Positions 535-41,508 of a stretch of DNA of 64,000 nucleotides are shown one piece after another. The notes under the pieces were generated by a model. The model searched no databases and was not told where the DNA came from. It saw only the letters and a list, made by a program, of their open reading frames with translations. Each line of letters begins with the position of its first letter. The stretch's first letter is position 1. Source of the stretch: Bacillota bacterium (lineage in GTDB: Bacteria; Bacillota; Sulfobacillia; DUSP01; JBFMCS01); NCBI GenBank assembly GCA_040754315.1, contig JBFMCS010000014.1, positions 1-64,000 on the forward strand. Direction: 5' to 3'. Made by a program: the position numbers and the translations under genes.

Positions 535-1650
535 CTACCGGCGGATCAACTCCAGGACTATCCTGGCTAGGCTCTCCAGGTCCACCAGGGAAATCTCCTC
601 ATCAACGCTGTGGGGGTTCTTGTATCCCACCCCCAGTACGACGGATTTGATGCCCTTGGCATTGAGAACGCTGGCATCGCTTCCCCCGCCTGTGGAGGTT
701 ACTTGCGCCTTCAGGCCCGCTCTTTCCACGGCGCCCAGAGCCATCTGCACAACGGGTTCGTGGGGCCCAAGATCGTACCCTTCGTACTGCAATATCACCC
801 TTTCCTCAACCTTTGCCCCGACCTTCCCGGCCCCTTCTTGCATGGAAGCCAGCATGTGCTCGGTTTCGGCTTTCATCTTGGCCTTGTCCAGAGAGCGTGT
901 CTCTCCGTGGATCTCCACGCGTTCGCACACTATGTTAGTGGCCTTGCCACCCTGGATCAACCCCAGGTTAGCCGTGGTCTCTGGGTCGATCCTGCCAAGC
1001 TTCATGAGGCTTATCCCCAGTGCTGCCGCCTTCAGGGCATCGATGCCAGACTCGGGGCTAACACCGGCATGGGCAGCCTTGCCGGTGATGGTCCATTCCA
1101 GCCGGTTGTGATAGGGGGCCCTCGTCACGATGCGGCCCGGTGGGCCTGAGCTGTCCAGGACAAAAGCAAGGGGGGACCTCAGTTCCCCCGTCTCCAGGTA
1201 CCTTACGCCCTTTAACCCCTGCTCCTCTGCCACGGTGAAGATGAGTTCCAGGCCAGCATGGGGCAATCCTTGCTCCCTGACGACCGTGAGGGCTTCAAGC
1301 AATGCCGCGATTCCGGCCCTGTCGTCAGCACCGAGAATGGTGTTCCCCTCGGACCTGATAATGCCACCCTCTACCCTGGGCACCACAGGGTGGTCCGCTT
1401 CCACCGTGTCCATGTGGGTTACCAAGCCAATCCACTCATTCCCGGGGGGGGTGGGCTCCAGTCTCCCGACGATGTTTCCACAGTTGCCGCCAATGGCCTC
1501 CCCGGTCCCATCCATGGCTGCCCTCACTTGGAGGGCTTCCAGTTGTGCCAGGACATTCTCAGCAACCAGGTGCTCGTTGAAGGATGGCCCCTCGATCGTG
1601 AGCAGGTTTAGAAAGTTCTCCAGAAGCCGTTCCCTATTCAACAATGCCAT
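535..1650 (-). CDS. M20 family metallopeptidase, peptidase T-like
   Basis: Cytosolic di-zinc peptidase, probably a tri- or dipeptidase of the PepT-like branch of M20. Metal and catalytic residues are visible in order: H79 and D81 in THMDTV, the GADDRAG motif near 107-113, the EE pair at 142-143, and a late STGGGSD stretch with a C-terminal NPHS histidine. About 371 residues is normal for the family. The start is ambiguous: a near-perfect Shine-Dalgarno (GGAGGTGAT, from 1655 down) lies only about 2 nt from the ATG at 1650 but at ideal distance from TTG at 1644. An ATG at 1689 is too far upstream. It is divergent from the PucR-type regulator, which may control both. The amino acid or peptide genes nearby fit a role in supplying free amino acids. 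Confidence 0.85.
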   Translation of the reverse strand: MALLNRERLLENFLNLLTIEGPSFNEHLVAENVLAQLEALQVRAAMDGTGEAIGGNCGNIVGRLEPTPPGNEWIGLVTHMDTVEADHPVVPRVEGGIIRSEGNTILGADDRAGIAALLEALTVVREQGLPHAGLELIFTVAEEQGLKGVRYLETGELRSPLAFVLDSSGPPGRIVTRAPYHNRLEWTITGKAAHAGVSPESGIDALKAAALGISLMKLGRIDPETTANLGLIQGGKATNIVCERVEIHGETRSLDKAKMKAETEHMLASMQEGAGKVGAKVEERVILQYEGYDLGPHEPVVQMALGAVERAGLKAQVTSTGGGSDASVLNAKGIKSVVLGVGYKNPHSVDEEISLVDLESLARIVLELIRR

Positions 1651-1718
1651 CACCTCCAAAGGGACTTGGGGGGTTGTTACAGAATACATACCCTACCCTA
1701 AACAGGGGGGACGACGCC

Positions 1719-3374
1719 ATGATAACCGTGGGCCATGTGCTGGCAATCGAACCCCTCACCCAGGCCAGGGTAGTAGCCGGTGAGTCAGGCCTGGGGAATG
1801 CCATCGAACACGTTGACATCATTGAAGTGCCGGATGCTGATGCCTGGATCCGCCCCGGGTCCTTCCTGCTGACGACGGCATTTGCCTTCAAGGAAGACCC
1901 TGAGAAGCTCTTGGCCCTGATCGAACACCTCGGCAGGACCAAGGCGGCGGCGCTGGCCTTGAAGCCCCACAGGTTCCTGGGTTTCGTGCCCAGGGAGGCA
2001 CTCTCCCTAGCCAACAAGTACTGCCTGCCACTGATAGAGATCCCAGCACACATGGCCTACATTGACATAACCACACCCATAATGACCCTCATCATTGACG
2101 AGCAGTCCTTCAGGCTGAAGCGCTCCGAAACCGTTCACAGGGTCTTGACGGACCTAATCCTTGGAGGCGGCGGGCTGCGCGAGATAGCCGGCGCCCTGCA
2201 TTCCCTGCTCCGAAACCCTGTGGCAGTGCTCTCCCAGGACCTCGCAGTCCTGGCAGAGGTGCCTTCACATGATGACACCAAGGTCAAAGGCTTCCCGGGA
2301 AACATCTCCTTGGGGATACGGCAACTCTCAAAGGGGCGCAGCTCCGATGGCAGTCTCCCACAAAGGATTGACTTGGGTGGCTCGGGTTCAGCCGTGGTGG
2401 CGCCGGTTGTGGCCGGGCGCGAACTCTGCGGGTACCTGGCGGTTCTGGAGGCAACCGGCAAGGTTCCAGATACCGAATGGCTTGCCTTGGAGAAGGCCTC
2501 CACAGCGATAGCGCTGGATCTCATGAGACAGAAGGCCGTGGCCGAGGCCGAACACCGCATGGAACACGACCTGGTCATGGACATCCTCTCGGGGCCCGGG
2601 ATAAGCGAGGATATCGCCCGTGAACGAGCCAAGTACTTCTCCTGGAGGCTCGAGGGCAACGTCGGTGTGGCTGTGGTGGACATAGATGACTTCACCACAT
2701 ACTATCACTCCAGGCCTAAGGATGAGATCCACATTCAGAGGATGAAGGAATCCCTTTTCCAATTGATAGTCAAGGTGACAGGGGAGATCAGCCCAGGTGC
2801 CATAGTCACTAGGTACAGTGACGGCGCCGTAGTCCTCCTCACTGACATCCCGCCTGCGTCCAAGACATGGCTGGATGAAGTGGCCAAGTCGATCCACCGG
2901 GAACTCTCCCAGTCCATAGATGGCCCCACCTGTTCAATAGGGGTGGGGGGAGTGTACTCCCAGCTGTCCCAAACATGGCGCAGCTTCAACCAGGCCCAGA
3001 AGGCCATAGAGATCGGAAGGATGATCCACGGGAAGAACACCGTTCACTGCTATAACACGCTTGGCATCTACCGTCTCATCTGCGACTACCACGACAGGGA
3101 AGCACTCCAGGAGATAGTCGAACAAACCATCGGCCCGTTGCTCAAGTACGACAGGAACAACAACGGCTCCCTCATGGAAACCCTCCACACGTACCTTGCA
3201 TGCGATAAGTGCCAGAAGACTGCCGCGGAGCAATTGTACTTGCACCGCAACTCTATGAAGTACCGCCTCCAGCTAATACGGAACCTCCTGGGGGATGACG
3301 CCCTCACGGGGTTCGGCGCCACCCGCGTCCACCTCGCCCTGGCCATATACATGGTACTTTCCCGGCACTCCTGA
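1719..3374 (+). CDS. PucR family transcriptional regulator
   Basis: DNA-binding regulator of about 551 residues. The N-terminal PucR domain (about 1-125, starting ITVGHVLAIEPL) is a ligand-sensing domain typical of purine and amino-acid catabolism regulators. The central part resembles the GAF/GGDEF-like region of CdaR/PucR proteins. The C-terminal 60 residues form the PucR helix-turn-helix (CQKTAAEQLYLHRNS). The ATG at 1719 has a G-rich ribosome site at 1704-1710. An in-frame codon at 1644 would overlap the divergent gene and encodes unlikely sequence. Being divergent from a peptidase and upstream of the transporter-racemase-DUF917 genes, it is the likely local activator; this is inference from position. 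Confidence 0.88.
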   Translation: MITVGHVLAIEPLTQARVVAGESGLGNAIEHVDIIEVPDADAWIRPGSFLLTTAFAFKEDPEKLLALIEHLGRTKAAALALKPHRFLGFVPREALSLANKYCLPLIEIPAHMAYIDITTPIMTLIIDEQSFRLKRSETVHRVLTDLILGGGGLREIAGALHSLLRNPVAVLSQDLAVLAEVPSHDDTKVKGFPGNISLGIRQLSKGRSSDGSLPQRIDLGGSGSAVVAPVVAGRELCGYLAVLEATGKVPDTEWLALEKASTAIALDLMRQKAVAEAEHRMEHDLVMDILSGPGISEDIARERAKYFSWRLEGNVGVAVVDIDDFTTYYHSRPKDEIHIQRMKESLFQLIVKVTGEISPGAIVTRYSDGAVVLLTDIPPASKTWLDEVAKSIHRELSQSIDGPTCSIGVGGVYSQLSQTWRSFNQAQKAIEIGRMIHGKNTVHCYNTLGIYRLICDYHDREALQEIVEQTIGPLLKYDRNNNGSLMETLHTYLACDKCQKTAAEQLYLHRNSMKYRLQLIRNLLGDDALTGFGATRVHLALAIYMVLSRHS

Positions 3375-3532: not shown

Positions 3533-5089
3533 GTGAGTACGGAAGTGAAAACCCCGCTCGGCCCCAAGAGCCATCCAAAGGCCCTTACCGGCGTAAACCT
3601 GATCTTGGGGTTGGCCATGGCCGCCGTTTCCGGGGCCATCTGCATGCAGATCATAGGGCGTATCGGGATAACACCCAACACATCCATTATTGGCGCTATC
3701 GTGGCAATCACCCTGGCCAGGGTTGTTGCCAGCCTGAGACCGCTGGACAGCCAAAACATCATTCAGACCTACACATCAGCTGGAGGTTTTTCTGCGGCTA
3801 ATGCTGGACTTCTTTCCGTGGCCATCGTGTTCTTAATGGGGCAACCCGCTCTTGTCTATCCTCTTCTTATCGGGTCAGGCATTGGTGTGCTGCTTGACGT
3901 GTGGTTCGTCACCCAGTTGTACAATACCAAGGTATACCCTGCTGAGGGGGCCTGGCCCCCTGGCGTGGCCACCGCCGAGGCACTCTGGGCGGCTGACGAG
4001 GGAGGCAAGCGAGCCAGGAGACTTGTGGAAGGCATCATAGCTGGCATAATCGGCACCTACTTCAAGTTGCCAATGGCAGGCATCGGCATAGCCTTTATCG
4101 CCAACATCTTCGCCATCACTGCTCTGGGCATAGGCCTTCTCATCCGAGGTTACGCACCAGTGCTCTTCGGCGTCAACCTGGGGGAGACCTATGTTCCCCA
4201 CGGGATGATGATTGGCGCTGGTCTGGTCCAGCTCGTCCAGGCCTTCCTGATCATCTCAAGGAAACAGGAGGAGAAGGAAACTGCTCAAACCGAGGCTAAC
4301 GAAGGCATCCCCAAGAAGATAGTGATTCACTTCGCGCTCTTTTCCGTAGGCGCCTTGGTGATGGCACTGATTGCAGGGGCGCTGTGGCAGATGAGCCTAG
4401 GCCAGATAATCGTATTCACGCTGTTTGCCGGTTTCGCCGCAGCCGCGTCCACCATCATTGTGGGTCTTTGCGCCATGCACTCGGGTTGGTTCCCAGCCTT
4501 CGCGGTGACGATAATCTTCCTTACCATAGGTATGTTCCTGGGTATCCCCGCGGTACCCCTGGCACTCCTGACCGGGTACACGGCATCCACGGGCCCCCTC
4601 TTCGCCGACTTCGGGTATGACCTGAAGACGGGCTGGCTAATCAGGGGCAGGGGCCAGGACATGGCCTACGAGAAGGACGGCAGGAAGCAGCAGTTCATTG
4701 CTGAAGCCGTGGGCGGGATCATGGGCCTGGTGATGGTAGGCCTGTTCGCCGGGATGCACTTCAAGCTGGACCTGCTTCCCCCGGTGAGCCGGGTCTTTGC
4801 GGCCACCATTAACGCAGGGGCGGATCCGGGGATTGTCCGCCAGCTAATCCTCTGGAGCATCCCCGGCGCCGCCATACAGGTAATTGGCGGTCCAGGCAGG
4901 GCAATGGGCGTCCTGTTTGCCACTGGGCTCCTCATCATGAGCCCCATATATGGCTGGGGCCTCATAGCCGCTGTCATAGCCAGGAGGATTATTGGCGAGG
5001 AGCCAATGAAGGTCAGGGAGGCTGGCCTCATAGCAGGGGACGGGATCTACGGTTTCGTGAATTCCATAATCCGGACATTCTTCGCCTGA
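3533..5089 (+). CDS. OPT superfamily transporter (oligopeptide/YSL type)
   Basis: Polytopic membrane protein of about 518 residues with roughly a dozen hydrophobic segments, matching the oligopeptide transporter (OPT) superfamily. Family-like stretches include GGFSAANAGLLS early, NTKVYPAEGAWPPGVA in the first half, and LTGYTASTGPLFADFGYDL in the second. OPT proteins import peptides or metal chelates by proton symport. The GTG at 3533 is chosen because GAAGGAGGG (3517-3525) sits 8 nt before it; the upstream in-frame extension of 45 residues is not protein-like. It is followed by a racemase gene with a 10-bp-stem hairpin between, so it probably imports the substrate of that cassette. The substrate cannot be read from sequence. 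Confidence 0.85.
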   Translation: MSTEVKTPLGPKSHPKALTGVNLILGLAMAAVSGAICMQIIGRIGITPNTSIIGAIVAITLARVVASLRPLDSQNIIQTYTSAGGFSAANAGLLSVAIVFLMGQPALVYPLLIGSGIGVLLDVWFVTQLYNTKVYPAEGAWPPGVATAEALWAADEGGKRARRLVEGIIAGIIGTYFKLPMAGIGIAFIANIFAITALGIGLLIRGYAPVLFGVNLGETYVPHGMMIGAGLVQLVQAFLIISRKQEEKETAQTEANEGIPKKIVIHFALFSVGALVMALIAGALWQMSLGQIIVFTLFAGFAAAASTIIVGLCAMHSGWFPAFAVTIIFLTIGMFLGIPAVPLALLTGYTASTGPLFADFGYDLKTGWLIRGRGQDMAYEKDGRKQQFIAEAVGGIMGLVMVGLFAGMHFKLDLLPPVSRVFAATINAGADPGIVRQLILWSIPGAAIQVIGGPGRAMGVLFATGLLIMSPIYGWGLIAAVIARRIIGEEPMKVREAGLIAGDGIYGFVNSIIRTFFA

Positions 5090-5097
5090 ACAGAACC

Positions 5098-5133
5098 GGG
5101 GAAGGCCATGGCAGCGGCGCCTTGGCCTTCCCC
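5098..5133 (+). other. Intercistronic hairpin between transporter and racemase
   Basis: GGGGAAGGCC (5098-5107) pairs perfectly with GGCCTTCCCC (5124-5133), and the 16-nt loop contains GGC/GCC that can extend it. No U-run follows, so it is more likely an mRNA processing or stability element, or a weak attenuator, than a terminator. Confidence 0.5.
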
Positions 5134-5155
5134 TCCATAACGGGAGGATACCCAC

Positions 5156-5821
5156 ATGTACAACGTAGGGCTCATACGTGTGCTGACAGTGGATGACGAG
5201 GAGGCCCTCAACCTTCACGGCGCCATCATCCAGGAGTACCTACCCCAGCTGAGGGTCATCTCAAGGTGCATACCTGATCAGCCCTGCGGCATATATGATG
5301 CTTGCACCGAGCGAGAGGCCATCCCCAAGATCTTGCAGGCAGGGAAGGACCTGCGGGATGAGGGGGTCATGGCCCTTATTGTAAGCTGTGCAGCCGACCC
5401 AGGGGTGCAGGCTCTCCGGCGCCAAGTGTCCATTCCCGTGATTGGGGCTGGCTCGGCAGGGGCCTCCGTCGCCTTGGCCCTGGGGGGCCCTGTGGGCGTA
5501 CTGGGTATAACCGGGGAGGCCCCGGAGGCCATGGCCAGGGTCCTGGGCCAGAACCTGGCCGGGGTCGCGCGGCCGGAAAAGGTAAAGACCACCTTGGACC
5601 TCCAGGCTGGCGGCGCCCTAGAGGAGGTCGAAAGGGCCGCTCGCGGGCTAGTGGAGGGAGGGGCACGCTCCATCGCCCTTGCCTGCACAGGCATGACCAC
5701 TTGCGGCGCCGCGTCCCACCTTGCCAAGAGGATTGATGCTCCAGTGGTGGACCCGGTGCTGGCAGCAGCCTTGGCAGCCTATTCCGCTGTGGTAACGAGG
5801 GGACTGGGGGGGAAGGCATGA
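5156..5821 (+). CDS. Asp/Glu/hydantoin racemase family protein
   Basis: A 221-residue protein of the aspartate/glutamate/hydantoin racemase family, which inverts a stereocentre by two-base catalysis with two cysteines and no cofactor. Both are visible: C78 in VSCAADPG and C177 in LACTGM, with a GAGSAGAS stretch between the halves. The ATG at 5156 has GGGAGGA about 10 nt upstream. The last 4 nt (ATGA) overlap the start of the DUF917 gene, so the two are translationally coupled. Pairing with DUF917, whose family includes S-methyl-thiohydantoin desulfurases, makes a hydantoin-type or similar cyclic amino-acid derivative a reasonable substrate guess. An amino-acid racemase role is the alternative. 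Confidence 0.8.
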   Translation: MYNVGLIRVLTVDDEEALNLHGAIIQEYLPQLRVISRCIPDQPCGIYDACTEREAIPKILQAGKDLRDEGVMALIVSCAADPGVQALRRQVSIPVIGAGSAGASVALALGGPVGVLGITGEAPEAMARVLGQNLAGVARPEKVKTTLDLQAGGALEEVERAARGLVEGGARSIALACTGMTTCGAASHLAKRIDAPVVDPVLAAALAAYSAVVTRGLGGKA

Positions 5822-6885
5822 TACACCTTGCCGCAGGTTCGGTGAAGATGGCTGTACTTGGAGGGGCGTTGCTGGGCGGCGGTGGGGGCGGGTCCATGGA
5901 TCTGGGCCTAGCCTTCGGAAACCTGGCAGTGGCCATGGACAGGGTGTGCCTGGTCCAACCGGATGAACTCCCGGGCGATGCCGTCATCGTCACGGTAGGA
6001 GCCGTGGGAGCCCCTGCGGCCCAGGACCGCTACGTCACTCCCAGGCACTACGTGAGGGCTGTGGATCTTCTGTGCAGGCATGAGGGTATTCGTGTAGGGG
6101 GCCTCATCACCAACGAGAACGGCGGATTCGCCACGGTCAATGGCTGGCTGCAGGCAGCTACCCTGAATGTACCTGTGGTGGACGCCCCCTGTAACGGCAG
6201 GGCCCATCCCACCGGTCTCATGGGTTCCATGGGCCTTCACAGGTTGGAGCACTTCGTATCCGTTCAGTGTGCCAGTGGAGGAGACCCCAAGAAGGGAAGA
6301 TACTTGGAGACAACGGTCACGGGTAGCCTATCCCAGGTTGCCGCCGTCATACGCCAGATCTCCGTCCAGGCCGGGGGAATAGTGGCTGTGGCCAGGAACC
6401 CCGTTAGCCTGGAGTATGTCCAGGAGAATGCCGCCCCCGGTGCCATTACCCAGGCCATGAAGGTGGGCAAGGCCCTGGTGGAGAACGAGGGAGACCCGGA
6501 TAGGATGGCGGCCAAGGCCATGGAGACGCTGGGAGGGAGCGTGCTAGCCACAGGGATCATCGAAGACTTCTCCCTGATGACCGAGGGTGGCTTCGATTTG
6601 GGCTCTGTACGTCTTTCCACCGGGCATCACCTGACATTCTGGAATGAGTACATGACCCTGGACACGGAGAATGAGAGGGTCGCCACATTCCCCGACCTGA
6701 TCATGACACTTGACGCAGGTTCGGGGCTCCCCCTGGCCACCGCTGACCTGAGCCTGGGGAGAAGGGTGATACTGGTCATGTCAAGAAGGGAGAACCTCTT
6801 CCTGGGCGGGGGGATGCGAGACCCTGGTCTCTTCGCCATGGCTGAGGCTGCTGTGGGCAAGCCCATGGTAGAGTACGTGTTCTGA
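5818..6885 (+). CDS. DUF917 family protein (S-methyl-thiohydantoin desulfurase family)
   Basis: 355-residue protein with the glycine-rich N-terminus (LGGGGGGSMDLG) typical of DUF917. The family is now associated with S-methyl-thiohydantoin desulfurase activity, though most members are uncharacterised. Conserved-looking features are GGLITNENGG near 98 and a late LITMTLDAGSG-like segment near 300. It begins in the ATGA overlap with the racemase gene and ends 18 nt before the DUF1177 gene. This protein differs clearly from the second DUF917 protein at 40402-41508, so the two are probably not interchangeable. Family assignment is fairly sure; activity on any given substrate is not. Confidence 0.75.
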   Translation: MIHLAAGSVKMAVLGGALLGGGGGGSMDLGLAFGNLAVAMDRVCLVQPDELPGDAVIVTVGAVGAPAAQDRYVTPRHYVRAVDLLCRHEGIRVGGLITNENGGFATVNGWLQAATLNVPVVDAPCNGRAHPTGLMGSMGLHRLEHFVSVQCASGGDPKKGRYLETTVTGSLSQVAAVIRQISVQAGGIVAVARNPVSLEYVQENAAPGAITQAMKVGKALVENEGDPDRMAAKAMETLGGSVLATGIIEDFSLMTEGGFDLGSVRLSTGHHLTFWNEYMTLDTENERVATFPDLIMTLDAGSGLPLATADLSLGRRVILVMSRRENLFLGGGMRDPGLFAMAEAAVGKPMVEYVF

Positions 6886-6903
6886 TCCTTGGAGGTGACG
6901 CGA

Positions 6904-7851
6904 ATGGCTTTGAGGCATGTCACAGACGTCCTGGACCTGCTGGACCATCCTAAGGCTGGTGGTCCCTACATCAAAGAGGCTCTGGCTCACAGGGAATTCA
7001 AGGGCGAACTGTTGACACGGGAGGTATCAACGGAGAAGGGCAAGACAGACTTCGTGTGCTTCCGTTTCCCGGGGCGCAGGGGAAAGACCCGGGGTGGGGA
7101 TGCCCCCACCTTTGGCCTGATCGGCAGGCTTGGCGGCATCGGGGCGAGGCCTGAGAGGATAGGCCTGGTTTCGGACGGCGACGGTGCCATAACTGCAGTG
7201 TCCGCCGCCTTCAAGCTGGGACAGATGGCTGCCCGCGGTGATGTCCTTGAGGGTGACGTCATTGTAACAACTCACATATGCCCTTGCGCGCCGGTGAGGC
7301 CCCACCACCCGGTTCCATTCATGGATTCCCCCGTTGACCTCGCCACCATGAACGAGCACGAGGTGCTACCCGAAATGGACTGCATCCTCTCGGTGGATAC
7401 CAGCCGTGGCAACAGGATAATCAACCAGAGGGGGTTTGCCATCTCCCCGACGGTGAAGGAAGGCTACATACTCAAGGTCTCTGATGACCTCCTGGATGCC
7501 ATGGAGATAGTCACGGGAAGGCCCGCGCAGGTCCTGCCCATAACTATGCAGGACATAACCCCTTACGGCAATGGGGTATTTCACCTCAACAGCATACTCC
7601 AGCCCTCGTGTGCCACGCCATCTCCGGTAGTGGGAGTCGCCCTCACGGCTGAGGTGCCCGTGCCTGGCTGTGCCAGCGGTGCCTCTCACCCAGTGGACAT
7701 TGAGATGGCAGTGCGCTTCGTCATAGAGGCGGCAAAGGGGTTTACCTCGAAGAGCCTTCACGTGTACGATCCCGAGGAATTCAGCCGCATGGTCGAATTG
7801 TATGGTGAGATGACCCACCTGCAGACGCTCGGGAGGAAGGGTACGAGTTGA
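6904..7851 (+). CDS. DUF1177 family protein
   Basis: About 315 residues, opening RHVTDVLDLLDHP and containing the stretches SDGDGAITAVSAAFKLG and HHPVPFMDSPVD, which I recognise as DUF1177. The family has no known function. An ICPCAPV motif carries two cysteines, and several His, Asp and Glu residues lie around it, compatible with a metal site, though that is a guess. Start: ATG 6904 follows GGAGGTGA (6891-6898) by 5 nt; the in-frame codon at 6889 lies before the ribosome site. The stop overlaps the TTG start of the next gene, so it is part of the coupled cassette. Confidence 0.65.
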   Translation: MALRHVTDVLDLLDHPKAGGPYIKEALAHREFKGELLTREVSTEKGKTDFVCFRFPGRRGKTRGGDAPTFGLIGRLGGIGARPERIGLVSDGDGAITAVSAAFKLGQMAARGDVLEGDVIVTTHICPCAPVRPHHPVPFMDSPVDLATMNEHEVLPEMDCILSVDTSRGNRIINQRGFAISPTVKEGYILKVSDDLLDAMEIVTGRPAQVLPITMQDITPYGNGVFHLNSILQPSCATPSPVVGVALTAEVPVPGCASGASHPVDIEMAVRFVIEAAKGFTSKSLHVYDPEEFSRMVELYGEMTHLQTLGRKGTS

Positions 7852-8705
7852 GACAGTCAATCCAGATCACGCTGACCGTGCCTGAGGGGAAGAGACTCAT
7901 CGCCAAGGCGCTGAGCCTTGTCCCCGAGATCCAGGAGGCTCTCGTACATGGCTTGATACTCCTCAAAGGGGGGACAACGGTGTCCGCGCTCTGCGAGGAA
8001 CTATGCGGTGTGCCCCTGAGGATCTCCGGCCGCATAAGTGCCACGGGAACGCGGGCGGCGCGGGATGAATCCCGCGCCCCCCATGTTGTGCTCCTGGATC
8101 ATGGCCGCCCTCAGCCCTTGATGGACCTGGAGGCAATGGCAAGTACGGTGAGGTCCATGGGACCTGGGGACGTGTCTGTGATGGGGGCGAATATCATTGA
8201 TGCCCAAGGGAATGCGGCTATGATGGCCGGCGCCGAGCTGGGCGGTGCGCCAGGTCAAGTGATCTCCGGCCTGATGGCTCAGGGGGCACACCTCTTCATA
8301 GCGGCGGGCTTGGAGAAGATGTCCCCGGTGAGCGTGGGCAAGGCAGTGCTTGCGGCAGGACGAACGCGAATGAAGAGGAGTATGGGGATGGCAGTAGGCC
8401 TCATACCCATCTACGGTCGCCTCGTCACGGAGATGGAGGCCCTGACCATACTGGGCAGGTCTCTCGGTGAGGAACCGGCAGTCTCCGTGATAGGCCGGGG
8501 AGGCATGGATGGGGCAGAAGGCTCAACAACCTTCGTTGTGTCAGGGGAGACAGACACCCTCGTGGAGGGCGTTTGGGAAGAGGTCTGGAGGATCAAGGGC
8601 TCAGGCCACTCGGGGGAGGAGGCCTCGCTGCCGGAGTGCGCGGGGGCAGGCCCTAGCTGCGCCCGCCACAGGAGTTGCTGTTATGTAAGGAGGTTAGGCC
8701 CGTGA
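7848..8705 (+). CDS. Uncharacterised protein, possibly NagB/RpiA/CoA-transferase-like fold
   Basis: 285 residues; I do not recognise a named family. The central motif VMGANIIDAQGN resembles the GAN-x-ID-x-x-GN loop of NagB/RpiA/CoA-transferase-like and LUD proteins, followed by a Gly/Ala-rich segment and AAGLEKMSPVSV. That resemblance is by eye only. The last 25 residues are Cys- and Arg-rich and may be a poorly conserved tail. It uses TTG at 7848 with GGGAGGAAGGG 6 nt upstream, overlaps the previous stop, and itself overlaps the GTG of aroM by 4 nt. Its fixed position between DUF1177 and AroM genes suggests a shared pathway. Confidence 0.6.
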   Translation: MRQSIQITLTVPEGKRLIAKALSLVPEIQEALVHGLILLKGGTTVSALCEELCGVPLRISGRISATGTRAARDESRAPHVVLLDHGRPQPLMDLEAMASTVRSMGPGDVSVMGANIIDAQGNAAMMAGAELGGAPGQVISGLMAQGAHLFIAAGLEKMSPVSVGKAVLAAGRTRMKRSMGMAVGLIPIYGRLVTEMEALTILGRSLGEEPAVSVIGRGGMDGAEGSTTFVVSGETDTLVEGVWEEVWRIKGSGHSGEEASLPECAGAGPSCARHRSCCYVRRLGP

Positions 8706-9370
8706 AGTTAGCGTTGATAACCATTGGGCAATCGCCCCGTCCAGACATTGTGCCGGAACTACGTGGCATTTGGGGGCAGGTCGTCCAGGTCATGGAGAGG
8801 GGTGCCCTGGATGGACTCGGCAAGGAAGAGATAGCCTCCATGGCCCCAACCCCGGATGACTACGTGCTGGTTACCAGGCTGGCTGATGGCTCCTCGGTCC
8901 GGATAGCCCGGCGCTTCGTTGAGCCCTTGGTGGTCAAGGCAATACGGGAGATGGACGCTGCCGGGACTGATTGCATACTCCTTCTTTGCACAGGGGACTT
9001 CGCGGCGCTTGAAACCCAGACCCTTCTTGTCAAGCCCGATGAGGTTCTTCACAACACCGTTGAGGCCCTGGCGGGCAACCGCACTGTGGGGATCCTGACA
9101 CCTGCCCCGGCCCAGGTTGAGCAGGCTAAGGTGAAGTGGGCAGGCCAGCCCGGCAAGGTTGTGGTTGAAGCGGCGAACCCCTATTCTGATACCCAGGAGA
9201 CCATGGTCCGGGCAGTTGAGTCCTTGAAGAACCAGGGAGCCGGGATCCTGGTCATGGATTGCATGGGGTATACCCTTGCCATGAAGAAGGTTGTGAGGGA
9301 GGTTTCCGGTCTGCCCACGGTGCTTGCCCGCAGCCTCCTTGCCAGGGTTGTCGCGGAGATACTGGGATAG
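8702..9370 (+). CDS. AroM family protein
   Basis: About 222 residues with the AroM signature near the N-terminus (ITIGQSPRPDI). AroM proteins are of unknown function. They share the two-Cys layout of the Asp/Glu racemase superfamily, here LLLCTGDF and VMDCMGY, so an isomerase or lyase role is plausible. The GTG at 8702 has AAGGAGG (8687-8693) 8 nt upstream, and GTGA overlaps the stop of the preceding gene. It is the last gene of the plus-strand cassette; a convergent M42 peptidase gene follows. There are no shikimate genes nearby, so the name says nothing about pathway here. Confidence 0.78.
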   Translation: MKLALITIGQSPRPDIVPELRGIWGQVVQVMERGALDGLGKEEIASMAPTPDDYVLVTRLADGSSVRIARRFVEPLVVKAIREMDAAGTDCILLLCTGDFAALETQTLLVKPDEVLHNTVEALAGNRTVGILTPAPAQVEQAKVKWAGQPGKVVVEAANPYSDTQETMVRAVESLKNQGAGILVMDCMGYTLAMKKVVREVSGLPTVLARSLLARVVAEILG

Positions 9371-9468: not shown

Positions 9469-10575
9469 TTAACCCTGGTGGCTCCTGCTATTTTCCTTTT
9501 TCCCGGCTCCTGTCAACCCCATTCCCCTCACGAAACCCACTAGGAGGTTCACCGCGCCCGCCGCGTCCCTCAAATCACATACCTCCACAGGGGAATGCGA
9601 GTACCGCCGGGGTATGGACACCACACCCGTGGGGATCCCTGCCCGGGACAGGCCTATCGCTGAGGCATCGGTATTGGTCACGGGCACCACAGCCAGCTGG
9701 CAGGGAATGCCCTCGCTCTTGGCAACACTCTCCAGGGCCTCCCTGACCCCCGGGTTGGCGATGAAGGCCACATCACCTTCCTGAGTCATTAGCTGGATGA
9801 CAGGCCCCTCGCCGATGGCCACCGGGAGTTCCTGGTAGAAACTGACGTCCGGGGTATCCCCGCAAGGCATGGTGTCCAGGGCTATGGCCAGACCCGGGTC
9901 CACCTGGAATGCGGCCATCTTGGCACCTCCGAAGTCCACCTCTTCCCTGGTGGTAATGATCCCTACCACGGTTCCCCGGAAGGGCACGTCCCTGATCTGG
10001 GAGAACACCTCCGCCAGCACGGCACAGCCCACCCGGTTGTCAATGGCCTTGCCCACCACGCGGTAGGGTGAGAGCATCTCAATCTCGCTCTTGGCTGTTA
10101 CCGGGCTTCCTATCCCGATCCCCATGGACCTGACCTCATCCGCGCTGGAAGCGCCTACATCTATGTAGAGGTCCTCAGCCCTGGGAAGCTCTCCCTTCCC
10201 GGGGAAATGCCCGGGTCTGACGCCGATGACTCCCAAGTGCCCGGACACCCTTACCTTCCTGGCCTGCAGGATCCAGGCCCTCAACCCCACAGTGTGGAAA
10301 CGAAGAAAACCCGATGGCTCAACGCTCTTAACCAGCCCACCCACCTCGTCACCATGCGCGGCAATCATTAGCTTGGGCCCGCCCGGCAACCCCTCCCTGG
10401 AGGCGTAGAGATTCCCGGCACCATCGGCCCATACCCGGTCGGCCCAGGGCTCCAGTACTGTCTGCATGAGGCTGGTAATTGCCTGCTCATGACCGGAAAA
10501 CCCGTCAGTCTCTGCCAGCAGCTTCAGCCTGGCCAGCAACCGTTCTTCAAGGGTTGTGCCAGAGCATTCGGACAC
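9469..10575 (-). CDS. M42 family metallopeptidase (glutamyl aminopeptidase/FrvX-like)
   Basis: 368-residue cytosolic aminopeptidase of the M42 family, which forms large tetrahedral complexes that trim peptides. Metal ligands are visible: H74 in AAHGDEVGG, D179 in AIDNRVG, and the catalytic and metal glutamates at 211-212 in TTREEV, with a C-terminal histidine in RYSHSPVE. The GTG start at 10575 has AAAGGAG about 9 nt upstream. The gene is monocistronic and convergent with the AroM cassette, with 98 bp between stops and no clear terminator there. Together with the PepT-like enzyme it fits peptide use. Confidence 0.9.
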   Translation of the reverse strand: MSECSGTTLEERLLARLKLLAETDGFSGHEQAITSLMQTVLEPWADRVWADGAGNLYASREGLPGGPKLMIAAHGDEVGGLVKSVEPSGFLRFHTVGLRAWILQARKVRVSGHLGVIGVRPGHFPGKGELPRAEDLYIDVGASSADEVRSMGIGIGSPVTAKSEIEMLSPYRVVGKAIDNRVGCAVLAEVFSQIRDVPFRGTVVGIITTREEVDFGGAKMAAFQVDPGLAIALDTMPCGDTPDVSFYQELPVAIGEGPVIQLMTQEGDVAFIANPGVREALESVAKSEGIPCQLAVVPVTNTDASAIGLSRAGIPTGVVSIPRRYSHSPVEVCDLRDAAGAVNLLVGFVRGMGLTGAGKKENSRSHQG

Positions 10576-37667: not shown

Positions 37668-37929
37668 CTGCCACCGGGGGAGGGCACCTGCCCTCCCCCA
37701 CCCTCATGCTACGCCGGCTTCGGCTTCTACACCGGCAATGGCATCTTCCAGGATGGACACCATCTCCAGAGCCTCCGCTCTGGTGGTTACCAGAGGGGGT
37801 GCCACGAGCAGGTGATCGCCCTGGTCTCCCCCATCTGCTCCTGACCCTGGGTAGACGATGAGCCCCCTTCTGAAAGCAGCCTCCGTAACCCGCTGGCTCA
37901 CCCGGAGCTCAGGCCGGTGAGGCTCCTTG
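37381..37929 (+). repeat. Right copy of the ~550-bp direct repeat
   Basis: Counterpart of 33515-34073, at an offset of 3866 falling to 3857 after two small deletions. Here the aminotransferase part is intact and the M23 part is a headless fragment, the mirror image of the left copy. Confidence 0.92.
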
Positions 37930-39047
37930 CTCTTTCGATCCTTCACCAGTTCCAGCCCGAGCATGAGGCCGAGCCCTCGCACATCCCCCACCAGGGCATG
38001 CCTTCCCTGCAAGGCGCCGAGAAGGGACCTGAGGTAGGCTCCGGTCTCCCAGGCCCTCTCGGCCAAGCCCTCCTCCCGGATGATCCTCACCACCGCCGCC
38101 CCCACGGCCGTGCTCAGCGGGTTCCCCAGGTAGGTGTGGCCGTGATTGAAGGTACCCGATCCGCCAAGAAGGGTGTCATGAACCTCGTCCCTGACCATAA
38201 GGCCCGCCAGCGGGGTGTAACCACTGCCCAGCCCCTTGCCCATACACATCATGTCGGGAACCACGCTCCAGTGTTCCATGGCAAACATTCTCCCGGTCCT
38301 GCCGAAACCCGTCATAACCTCATCAGCCATGAACAACACCCCATGGCGGTCACAGATCTGCCTCACCCTTGGGTAGTACTCGGGAGGGGGTACCAGGGCA
38401 CCGCCGGAGGCTCCCACCACCGGTTCCGCCACGAAGACCGCTACGCTCTCCGGGCCCTCCCGTTTGATGCAGTCATCCAGGGCATCAGCGCATCGCACCC
38501 CACACCCGGGGTACTCCTGCCCGAAGGGGCAACGGTAGCAATAGGGGGCTGGGATATGTGGAAACGGCGCCAGCAGGGGGCTGTACATCCGTCTCCTGGG
38601 TGACTGGCCGCCCACGGAGAGGGCGCCCAGTGTGTTTCCATGGTAGCTCACCCAGCGACCTATTGCCTTGTAACGGCTAAGATCGCCCCTTTCCACGTGA
38701 TACTGGCGCGCCAGTTTCAGCCCGGCTTCCACCGCCTCGGATCCGCCGGAGAGGAAGTAGACCCGGTTCAGGTCTCCTGGCGAAACCTCCGCCAGGATAC
38801 GGGCGAGGTCCTCCTGGGGCCCGCTGGTGAACTGGCTGGTATGGGCGAAGCAAAGCTTAACAGCCTGTTCCGCCATGACCTCCGCGATCTCTTTCCGGCC
38901 GTGCCCTATATTCACCACCAGGGCCCCGGATGCCCCATCCAGGTACCTTTGGCCTTCGGAATCCCAGATCTGGACCCCTTCGGCCCTAACCGCCAAGGGG
39001 TACTTCTTCCTGGGAGCCCTGTAGAACACGTGACCCTTGCCTTCCAC
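37704..39047 (-). CDS. Class III PLP-dependent aminotransferase (first of tandem pair)
   Basis: 447-residue class III (omega-type) aminotransferase, moving amino groups from terminal amines such as ornithine, GABA or beta-amino acids to a keto acid. Visible: the glycine loop SGGSEAVEAGLKLA, the PLP-contact ADEVMTGFGRTG, and the Schiff-base lysine in CMGKGLGSGY. It lies 14 nt after the second aminotransferase gene and ends the long minus-strand operon at the hairpin at 37676-37699. Its 3' end is the right half of the island repeat. Substrate unknown. Confidence 0.9.
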   Translation of the reverse strand: MEGKGHVFYRAPRKKYPLAVRAEGVQIWDSEGQRYLDGASGALVVNIGHGRKEIAEVMAEQAVKLCFAHTSQFTSGPQEDLARILAEVSPGDLNRVYFLSGGSEAVEAGLKLARQYHVERGDLSRYKAIGRWVSYHGNTLGALSVGGQSPRRRMYSPLLAPFPHIPAPYCYRCPFGQEYPGCGVRCADALDDCIKREGPESVAVFVAEPVVGASGGALVPPPEYYPRVRQICDRHGVLFMADEVMTGFGRTGRMFAMEHWSVVPDMMCMGKGLGSGYTPLAGLMVRDEVHDTLLGGSGTFNHGHTYLGNPLSTAVGAAVVRIIREEGLAERAWETGAYLRSLLGALQGRHALVGDVRGLGLMLGLELVKDRKSKEPHRPELRVSQRVTEAAFRRGLIVYPGSGADGGDQGDHLLVAPPLVTTRAEALEMVSILEDAIAGVEAEAGVA

Positions 39048-39061
39048 TTCCAGGTCCCTCC

Positions 39062-40354
39062 CTACGATGGCCTGTACTCCCTCATGGTCTCCTCAATGAT
39101 CGCAAGCCCGTAGTCCAGGTCTTCCCGGCTGATGTTCAGCGGGGTCATGAACCTGAGCACATGCTTGTGATCCCCCGCGGGGTGCACGATGAGCCTCTTC
39201 TCCAGGCAGCGCTGGGTTATGTAGGTCACAGCATCCCCATTGGGGGTCCCATCCGGGTGAACGAATTCCACACCTACCATCATCCCAAGCCCCCGGACAT
39301 CCCCTATGAAGGGGTGTTCCTGCTTCATTTGTTCGAACCGGGACTTCATGTAAGCACCCATCTCCGCGGCCCTGCCCAGGAGGTTCTCCTCCTCGATCAC
39401 CTTGAGGCTGGCCAGGGCAGCGGCACAGGAGACGGGGTTTCCCCCGAAGGTTGTGCCGTGGGCTCCGGGCTTCCACGCATCCATGATCCGCCGGGGCGCC
39501 GCCAGGGCGCTCAGGGGCAGCCCTGCCGCGATCCCCTTGGCCATGGTCATGATGTCCGGGACAACCTGGAAGTGCTCCGTGGCGAACATCCTTCCTGTCC
39601 TGCCGAATCCCGACTGCACCTCGTCCATGATCAGCAGGATCCCGTGGTCAGCCGTGAGTTTCCTGAGCTCCCGCACATAACGGGCCGGGGGAACCACGTA
39701 CCCACCCTCCCCCATGACCGGTTCCATGATGACGCAGGCAACCCTGTCAGGAGCAACCTGGTATCGCATGAGGGTTCTCATCTCATTGAGGCACTCCAGG
39801 TCACAATTGGCCGGCGAGAGCCTGTAGGGGCAACGGTAGCAGTAGGGGTACGATACATGATATACCTCGGGTAACAGGGGTTCGTAGTAGGAATGATACT
39901 TCCAAGACGAGGCCGTCAGGCTGACAGCGCCGAAGGTCCTGCCATGGAAGCTTCCATAGAAACCGATGATACCAGGGCGCTTGGTGAAGTAGCGGGCCAG
40001 CTTGATGGCTCCCTCCACCGCCTCCGCACCGGAGTTGGAGAAGAAACACGTGTCTATCTCCCCCGGGGCCAGGCGTGCCAGCTCGCTGGCCAGTTCAGAG
40101 ACACTCTCATAGTACGCAGTGCTGATGGATATGTGGATGAGCCTCTCCAGCTGTGCCTTGGCGGCCTCAACCACCCGCGGGTGGCAGTGACCCACGTTGC
40201 ACACGGCTATCCCTGCTATGAAGTCCAGGTATCTCTCACCCTCACTGGTGTAGAGCCATGAGCCCTCACCCTTTTCCACCACCAGTTCCGTGTCTCTCAC
40301 TATCACCCCGGAAATGTGTTTCCTGCCCTTTTCGATAACCTCTGATGTTAACAC
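39062..40354 (-). CDS. Class III PLP-dependent aminotransferase (second of tandem pair)
   Basis: About 430 residues and resembling acetylornithine/4-aminobutyrate aminotransferases: FSNSGAEAVEGAIKLAR, MDEVQSGFGRTG and the PLP lysine in TMAKGIAAGLPLSA. Start: GTG 40354 (VLTSEV) with GGGGGTG upstream; an earlier in-frame TTG at 40393 encodes an unlikely extension. Clearly paralogous to its neighbour yet only partly similar, so the two may act on different donors or form a heteromer. It sits downstream of DUF917 and the Liv transporter. Confidence 0.9.
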   Translation of the reverse strand: MLTSEVIEKGRKHISGVIVRDTELVVEKGEGSWLYTSEGERYLDFIAGIAVCNVGHCHPRVVEAAKAQLERLIHISISTAYYESVSELASELARLAPGEIDTCFFSNSGAEAVEGAIKLARYFTKRPGIIGFYGSFHGRTFGAVSLTASSWKYHSYYEPLLPEVYHVSYPYCYRCPYRLSPANCDLECLNEMRTLMRYQVAPDRVACVIMEPVMGEGGYVVPPARYVRELRKLTADHGILLIMDEVQSGFGRTGRMFATEHFQVVPDIMTMAKGIAAGLPLSALAAPRRIMDAWKPGAHGTTFGGNPVSCAAALASLKVIEEENLLGRAAEMGAYMKSRFEQMKQEHPFIGDVRGLGMMVGVEFVHPDGTPNGDAVTYITQRCLEKRLIVHPAGDHKHVLRFMTPLNISREDLDYGLAIIEETMREYRPS

Positions 40355-40401
40355 CGTAAACACCCCCACATGGTATGTGACTGCTGGCGTCAAAGCGCTT
40401 C

Positions 40402-41508
40402 CTAGGGCACCAGGTGTTCCAGGGGCCTGTAGCCTGCATCGCAGCCAAAGTATCGAGGCCCCAGGATCCGGAGCGCGGGCTCGGACCTGAGCAGGCCGGG
40501 GGCCGGCGCCGCAACCACCACCAACTGGGCACCCACATCGATGTCTCCGTTGAGGACAGGCTTGCCATCGACCTTGCTGAGGCAGGTAATGATGTCCGGG
40601 CTGGTGACAAACGGTTCCCCGTTGAGGGTGGAGACGTGGTTCTCGTTCTTGAAGGTAATCTCCATGACCTGGCCCGTTGACTCAAGGGTGTGGGTTCCCC
40701 AGTAGTAGCCGTCCCGGTCCTCCTGCTCCTTCTTGGTGACGGTGCCATGGAATATGGTCCTCCATCCCAGGGGCCTCAGGGCGTCCCAGGGATTAGAGCC
40801 CTTGGTCGAGGCCTCCCGCATGGCCCTGCCCGCCCTGAGGGCCTGGCTCAGGGAACCCTCGACCAGGGCCTGGCGGCACTCCCCCAGGGACATCATGAAG
40901 CCAGTGAGACCGGTGGAACCGTAGGCTGCGTCGCTCAGGTACTTCCCCAGTCGTTCCGCCACGGCAAGGCTGGTGGCCTCCGTGAGGAGGGCCCGGTTAC
41001 CCCACTTGTCTACGCTGGCGGCAGGGAGAAAGGGCATGTCGAGAATGCCCACGGTACTCTGGGTGATCTCTGGCACAGCGCGCCCCGCGTAATCCCCATC
41101 CACCACAAGGATACCCAGGTGTGCTGCGGCGGCCACGGGGACCGGGGTGTTGGAGCCGCCCAGCTCAAATGGGACCAGGGCATCGATGCGCCGGCCGGTA
41201 AAACGCTCCAGCTGGCGTACGCTCTCAGGCAGGTTCCGCGGGTACTTCCACTGGGTGAAGCCTAGGGCCTTCATTTCAGCCCGCTTCTTTGCCGTCAGGG
41301 GAGCCGTGGACCCCATCAGGAAGGTACAGGCGGTCATCACGTGATTAGGCAGGGAACCGGGGTCTACCCATCCCACCTCCCGGCCAGCCTCCACCTGCTC
41401 CAGCAGTGCCGCCAGGCCCTCTTCGGGTTGGCCTCCCCCTCCCGCCCCATAGAGGGTGCACCCAAAGACGAAGTCCCTGGCATCTACTGGGTCGAGGATC
41501 GTTTTCAC
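40402..41508 (-). CDS. DUF917 family protein (S-methyl-thiohydantoin desulfurase family), second copy
   Basis: 368 residues, a typical DUF917 protein: CTLYGAGGGGQPEEG at the N-terminus, ELGGSNTPVP near 125 and VVDGDYAGRAVPE near 145, the canonical family signature, and a C-terminal domain of the S-Me-THD_C type. It begins with ATGA overlapping the livF stop, so it is translationally coupled to the ABC transporter. That tight link suggests the transporter imports its substrate. It is much closer to the family consensus than the other DUF917 protein at 5818-6885. Confidence 0.85.
   Translation of the reverse strand: MKTILDPVDARDFVFGCTLYGAGGGGQPEEGLAALLEQVEAGREVGWVDPGSLPNHVMTACTFLMGSTAPLTAKKRAEMKALGFTQWKYPRNLPESVRQLERFTGRRIDALVPFELGGSNTPVPVAAAAHLGILVVDGDYAGRAVPEITQSTVGILDMPFLPAASVDKWGNRALLTEATSLAVAERLGKYLSDAAYGSTGLTGFMMSLGECRQALVEGSLSQALRAGRAMREASTKGSNPWDALRPLGWRTIFHGTVTKKEQEDRDGYYWGTHTLESTGQVMEITFKNENHVSTLNGEPFVTSPDIITCLSKVDGKPVLNGDIDVGAQLVVVAAPAPGLLRSEPALRILGPRYFGCDAGYRPLEHLVP

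Follow-up and report, generated by a model that had tools for sequence, protein, structure and literature searches.

The closest described systems are the gene clusters around non-CDPS cyclodipeptide oxidases (CDOs), in which, according to the available part of a 2024 report (PMC11055893), genes for hydantoin racemase, DUF917, AroM, an OPT or dpp ABC transporter, and peptidases are enriched; the same part of the report already noted the predicted structure of AroM as racemase-like. Diketopiperazines are known to be degraded by Paenibacillus strains, and the enzymes that hydrolyse them were unidentified as of 2013 (PMC3852281). In the open-access literature searched, DUF1177 was found in one paper only, which concerns an unrelated fungal DUF family, and no paper was found that joined DUF1177 with AroM or DUF917. 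The DNA analysed here (the window, i.e., the whole stretch of 64,000 nucleotides) has the racemase, DUF917, AroM, OPT and peptidase genes in common with the non-CDPS CDO clusters as described in that part of the report, but its cassette differs from them in that it carries no cyclodipeptide oxidase and adds DUF1177 and an unnamed protein, hereafter UNK.

Five genes lie on the forward strand between positions 5156 and 9370 in the order racemase, DUF917, DUF1177, UNK and AroM (Table 1), with a PucR regulator and an OPT transporter upstream, and family scans agreed with the first-pass annotation on the types of these two preceding genes. The gene order and the junctions it had given, namely three 4-nt overlaps and one 18-nt gap with a ribosome site, were exact to the base: racemase and DUF917 overlap by ATGA (5818-5821, read from the sequence), DUF1177 and UNK by TTGA (7848-7851), and UNK and AroM by GTGA (8702-8705, preceded by AAGGAGG), and the gap between DUF917 and DUF1177 (6886-6903) contains GGAGGTG. 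It had noted neither the RNA hairpin upstream of the racemase gene nor the two peptidase genes that flank the set, of which the M20 PepT-like gene is a probable accessory of the cassette and the M42 gene is tied to the operon only by its position. The sequence from 5087 to 5155, which holds this long and very stable hairpin, folds with -34.6 kcal/mol (z -4.0; 0 of 200 shuffles equally stable); the hairpin may serve for RNA processing or attenuation and could give different expression levels for the transporter and the enzymes.

Table 1. Features of the window in and around the five-gene cassette
Feature	Coordinates	Strand	Evidence or remark
M20 PepT-like peptidase	535..1689	-	divergent from PucR; TIGR01883 323.7 bits, cut-off 274
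PucR-type transcriptional regulator	1719..3374	+	PF07905, PF17853, PF13556
OPT-family transporter	3533..5089	+	PF03169 E 6e-22
RNA hairpin, OPT/racemase intergenic	5098..5133	+	11-bp outer stem, no U-tract
Asp/Glu/hydantoin racemase-family protein	5156..5821	+	PF01177 E 3e-24; Cys78 and Cys177
DUF917, cassette-specific clade	5818..6885	+	PF06032 and PF20906 (S-Me-THD N and C domains)
DUF1177	6904..7851	+	PF06675 E 1e-129; predicted aminopeptidase-like alpha/beta fold
UNK, unnamed conserved protein with Cys/His tail	7848..8705	+	no family in Pfam or NCBIfam
AroM, racemase-superfamily protein	8702..9370	+	PF07302 E 2e-77; Cys96 and Cys187
M42 aminopeptidase	9469..10575	-	convergent; PF05343 E 6e-76

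Co-presence of these genes was evaluated in 61 genomes, i.e., the window's own genome and 60 relatives, mostly of the same class. The results showed that DUF1177 was present in 25 of the 61 genomes, that AroM was found in all 25 genomes with DUF1177 in comparison to 3 of the 36 without it (Fisher p 3.7e-14), that the cassette-type DUF917, which has a low PF06032 score, was found in 21 of 25 in comparison to 0 of 36, and that other DUF917s were independent of DUF1177 (p 0.42), with the reservation that these tests count related genomes as independent and the p-values thus overstate independence. We also collected 79 DUF1177 loci from a collection with one genome per species, sampled from Bacillota, Synergistota, Thermococcus, Chloroflexota, Spirochaetota, Pseudomonadota and Actinomycetota. 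DUF917 was the direct upstream neighbour of DUF1177 in 28 of 78 loci and AroM the direct downstream neighbour in 36 of 75, the commonest AroM junction being a 4-nt overlap. No DUF917 was found within 8 kb in 43 of the 79 loci; ring chemistry is therefore not obligatory for DUF1177.

The full seven-gene module, PucR-OPT-racemase-DUF917-DUF1177-UNK-AroM, has counterparts in distant Bacillota and in Synergistota, where it was found in Acetomicrobium (Synergistota, locus L032) and four other Bacillota (loci L143, L144, L145 and L146) in two gene orders, most of them with a gene for an M29-like aminopeptidase, and many Paenibacillus carry the module. The divergence of DUF1177 correlates with that of DUF917, AroM and PucR (Mantel r 0.54-0.78), for which common ancestry accounts in part. 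The cassette is a real operon that occurs in many bacteria and some archaea, and co-occurrence in other genomes, which had been named beforehand as the refutation test for the claim that the set is one unit, was found far more often than chance would give.

The cassette racemase reached 86.3 bits with PF01177 (cut-off 31), its best PDB match was 2eq5 over the full length (E 4e-62), and the catalytic-type residues Cys78 and Cys177 were invariant in 29 of 29 homologues. In its full-length match and two invariant cysteines it is like the Asp/Glu/hydantoin racemases (PF01177; PDB 2eq5), and it resembles the hydantoin and allantoin racemases in PDB, which supports the link to hydantoin racemases that the first-pass annotation drew from the family; 2eq5 is itself a hypothetical protein. 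AroM was below the PF01177 cut-off (19.8 bits in comparison to 31) and belongs to PF07302 instead, its Cys96 and Cys187 were observed to be invariant (54/54), and it aligns with racemase 2eq5 at both cysteine positions. Because both proteins keep two invariant cysteines, with AroM aligning to 2eq5, the racemase and AroM are probably both racemases of the cofactor-independent type. The window's AroM also passed the model of E. coli AroM (NF007788, PRK10481; 230.7 bits, cut-off 198), but in the E. coli control genome AroM was present without a DUF1177 or DUF917 match, unlike in the window's cassette.

The cassette DUF917 matched the thiohydantoin/S-methyl thiohydantoin desulfurase models (NCBIfam NF058529 and NF058532) over the full length with 289.4 and 278.1 bits, respectively, but failed both equivalog cut-offs (440 and 450). 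A maximum-likelihood tree of DUF917 was divided into two clades with branch support of 100/100. Clade 1 holds nearly all DUF1177-linked members, the window's cassette copy included, and scores 276 to 346 bits with the desulfurase models, in comparison to 75 to 129 bits for clade 2, which holds the HyuA-linked members, the copy in the CDO locus of the window's own genome, and a second DUF917 of the window. The view that the cassette DUF917 is the more divergent type, based on PF06032 scores alone, was overturned by the NCBIfam scores and the tree, which place its clade nearer to the desulfurases. The cassette protein can be regarded as related to the thiohydantoin desulfurases and in the same family, and the earlier description of it as a desulfurase relative stands to that extent; the desulfurase identity itself is putative, with scores below the cut-offs and no recognised pathway partners near the cassette.

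These results bear on the catabolism of hydantoins or thiohydantoins proposed in the first-pass annotation, for instance through an ergothioneine-like branch that ends in an amino acid. The nearness of DUF917 to the desulfurase models and the PDB likeness of the racemase fit such a pathway, as do the genes for HyuA, NCS1 permease and CN-hydrolase, consistent with cyclic ureides or amides, that a minority of the DUF1177 loci carry. However, the thiohydantoin desulfurase cut-off was reached in 0 of 299 Bacillota genomes, the HyuA-side DUF917 belongs to the other clade in loci with HyuA, no lyase or urocanase-like gene adjoins the cassette (a different contig carries the urocanase-family gene of this genome), and no hydantoinase belongs to the module, as had been noted earlier; we consider this pathway unlikely.

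Elsewhere in the window, the second DUF917 (40402-41508, reverse strand) overlaps a branched-chain amino-acid-type ABC transporter operon and is followed by two aminotransferase-like genes (37704-40393), both named by eye, and this region is possibly a separate amino-acid-derivative pathway. In two Alicyclobacillus loci (L026 and L068), several short opposite-strand ORFs lie between two DUF917 genes and are nearly identical in both.

The AF2 model of DUF1177 was confident (pLDDT 92.3), and Foldseek returned 201 PDB matches at E<=0.001, the matches listed being M17 and M28 aminopeptidases (E about 1e-7, prob 1.00, TM about 0.5). An aminopeptidase-like alpha/beta fold is thus predicted, and in this fold DUF1177 is like the M17 and M28 enzymes, from which it differs in its about 10% identity and in catalytic motifs that are not recognisable; no M17/M28/M42 metal motif was recognised in its sequence. 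D91, D93, D165, H227 and E275 are invariant and H124 and C126 near-invariant, and the three aspartates together with His124 and Cys126 could be metal ligands. Profile comparison with M20, M42 and M29-like peptidases gave no convincing match and none significant to M20 or M42, and PDB sequence searches with DUF1177 or UNK, single and as profile, gave chance matches only.

UNK matched no Pfam or NCBIfam model; of 398 Bacillota genomes sampled, 107 carry a member of its wider family. Most members of the close branch (about 20 matches of >300 bits) have DUF1177 on one side and AroM on the other, or stand next to DUF917 and a racemase in loci of ABC type that lack DUF1177 (L148, L149 and L153). Within one branch of the operons UNK is a regular partner. 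Conserved in UNK are the motifs KGGTT and GAN..D..G together with a Cys/His tail, for which the distant branch has a shorter Cys tail. The AF2 model of UNK was confident (pLDDT 92.5), but its best structural match was weak (E 3.8e-3, prob 0.98). The matches listed reach a TM of at most 0.34, and nearly all of them are ISOCOT, which weakly suggests an isomerase- or transferase-like enzyme; profile comparison with M29-like peptidases gave no convincing match. For any ring opening, DUF917 is a likelier candidate than an unknown protein such as UNK, whose weak similarity is to the ISOCOT fold (isomerases and CoA transferases) and not to hydrolases. A methyltransferase link of the distant UNK branch was rejected, as the neighbours vary by genome and several are pyruvate formate-lyase-like by eye; in several Bacillota (loci L118, L120, L123 and L124) this branch adjoins a gene whose N-terminus appears pyruvate formate-lyase-like by eye.

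Among the 79 DUF1177 loci, OPT was found within 8 kb in 31 and an SBP5-type (dpp-type) ABC transporter in 21, and the two were nearly exclusive, with one locus containing both (p 1.5e-4); PucR was found within 8 kb in 25. The peptidase-family genes near DUF1177 were M29-like in 26 loci, M20 in 18 and S51 in 14. The alternation of OPT and dpp-type ABC transporters, the M29-like, M20 and S51 peptidases, and the predicted fold of DUF1177 point to a substrate of peptide type and not a free hydantoin, although PucR, OPT and M20 are broad families from which the substrate can be deduced only weakly. The catabolism of a cyclic amino-acid derivative, as first proposed, survives as one of several options, and what chiefly has to be corrected in it is the peptide context.

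One such option is the recycling of linear peptides that are stereochemically damaged or contain D-residues, in which DUF917 would act on a cyclised end or a succinimide. Two putative racemases in one operon would suit this function, and in other DUF1177 loci the place of DUF917 is taken by a peptidase of the S51 aspartyl-dipeptidase type, none of the 79 having both (p 6.6e-5), but the S51 loci are mostly from Halomonadaceae and Actinomycetota, so that the exclusivity may be phylogenetic, and D- or iso-residues are without direct evidence. Such recycling appears improbable.

CDOB (PF19585) was not found beside the cassette, which is on contig 14; its matches in the window's own genome are on contigs 39 and 45, in two cyclodipeptide-oxidase loci away from the cassette. 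The locus on contig 39 (L140, 1-11071) is of cyclodipeptide-oxidase type with four M29-like genes, NCS1 permeases, HyuA, DUF917, CDOB and a racemase-like gene; that on contig 45 (L139, 1-10300) has a dpp-type ABC transporter, PucR, CDOB with a nitroreductase-like gene, and HyuA, and two more DUF917 genes are found on this contig beyond the locus. A narrower version of the favoured explanation is the catabolism of cyclic dipeptides (2,5-diketopiperazines), in which DUF917 would open the ring, the racemases would handle epimers, and DUF1177 and peptidases would cut the linear dipeptide. Besides the two CDO loci in the same genome, this version is favoured by the enrichment around non-CDPS CDOs described in the available part of PMC11055893, by AroM adjoining a CDO locus in Brevibacillus massiliensis (L133), and by the many module-carrying Paenibacillus, a genus with diketopiperazine-degrading strains. 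Against it, CDOB was found in only 6 of 48 DUF1177 genomes and was not seen in cassette loci, and the DUF917 of L140 is of the other clade than the cassette's, such that the diketopiperazine form is possible but doubtful. Upstream genes of 100 and 205 aa in Paenibacillus, whose size suggested a CDO, were considered as candidates and rejected, as by eye they encode a small HTH-like protein and a TetR-like regulator.

In general, the analysis suggested, with a probability of about one half, that the operon serves to break down a compound that is imported, derived from a peptide and perhaps cyclic or epimerised, and that DUF917 acts on its ring. Such an operon would be substrate-inducible and catabolic. 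Judged from its family, PucR would sense a ligand, and OPT, given its family and its alternation with dpp-type ABC importers, would import a small peptide-derived compound. The racemase and AroM would then determine the configuration at one or two residues, DUF917, whose clade is near the thiohydantoin desulfurases, would attack a cyclic form, hydantoin-like or other, at a carbon of its ring, and DUF1177 and peptidases (M29-like, M20 or M42) would release amino acids, with UNK possibly contributing as an ISOCOT-like isomerase or transferase; all of these reactions are putative. A more detailed pathway common to Bacillota, Synergistota and Thermococcus can be put forward tentatively, in which DUF917 would open a cyclic dipeptide or peptidyl-hydantoin, the two racemases would correct both stereocentres, DUF1177 would be a new dipeptidase of aminopeptidase fold, and UNK, where present, would represent a new enzyme family.

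The module is widespread, real and largely uncharacterised, and the pathway itself is undescribed. It links three poorly characterised families, DUF1177, AroM and UNK, within a single compact operon that also has a transporter and a regulator. AroM, which has its name from E. coli and no assigned function, now has a testable candidate activity, and the module is one concrete candidate for the enzymes that open cyclic dipeptides.
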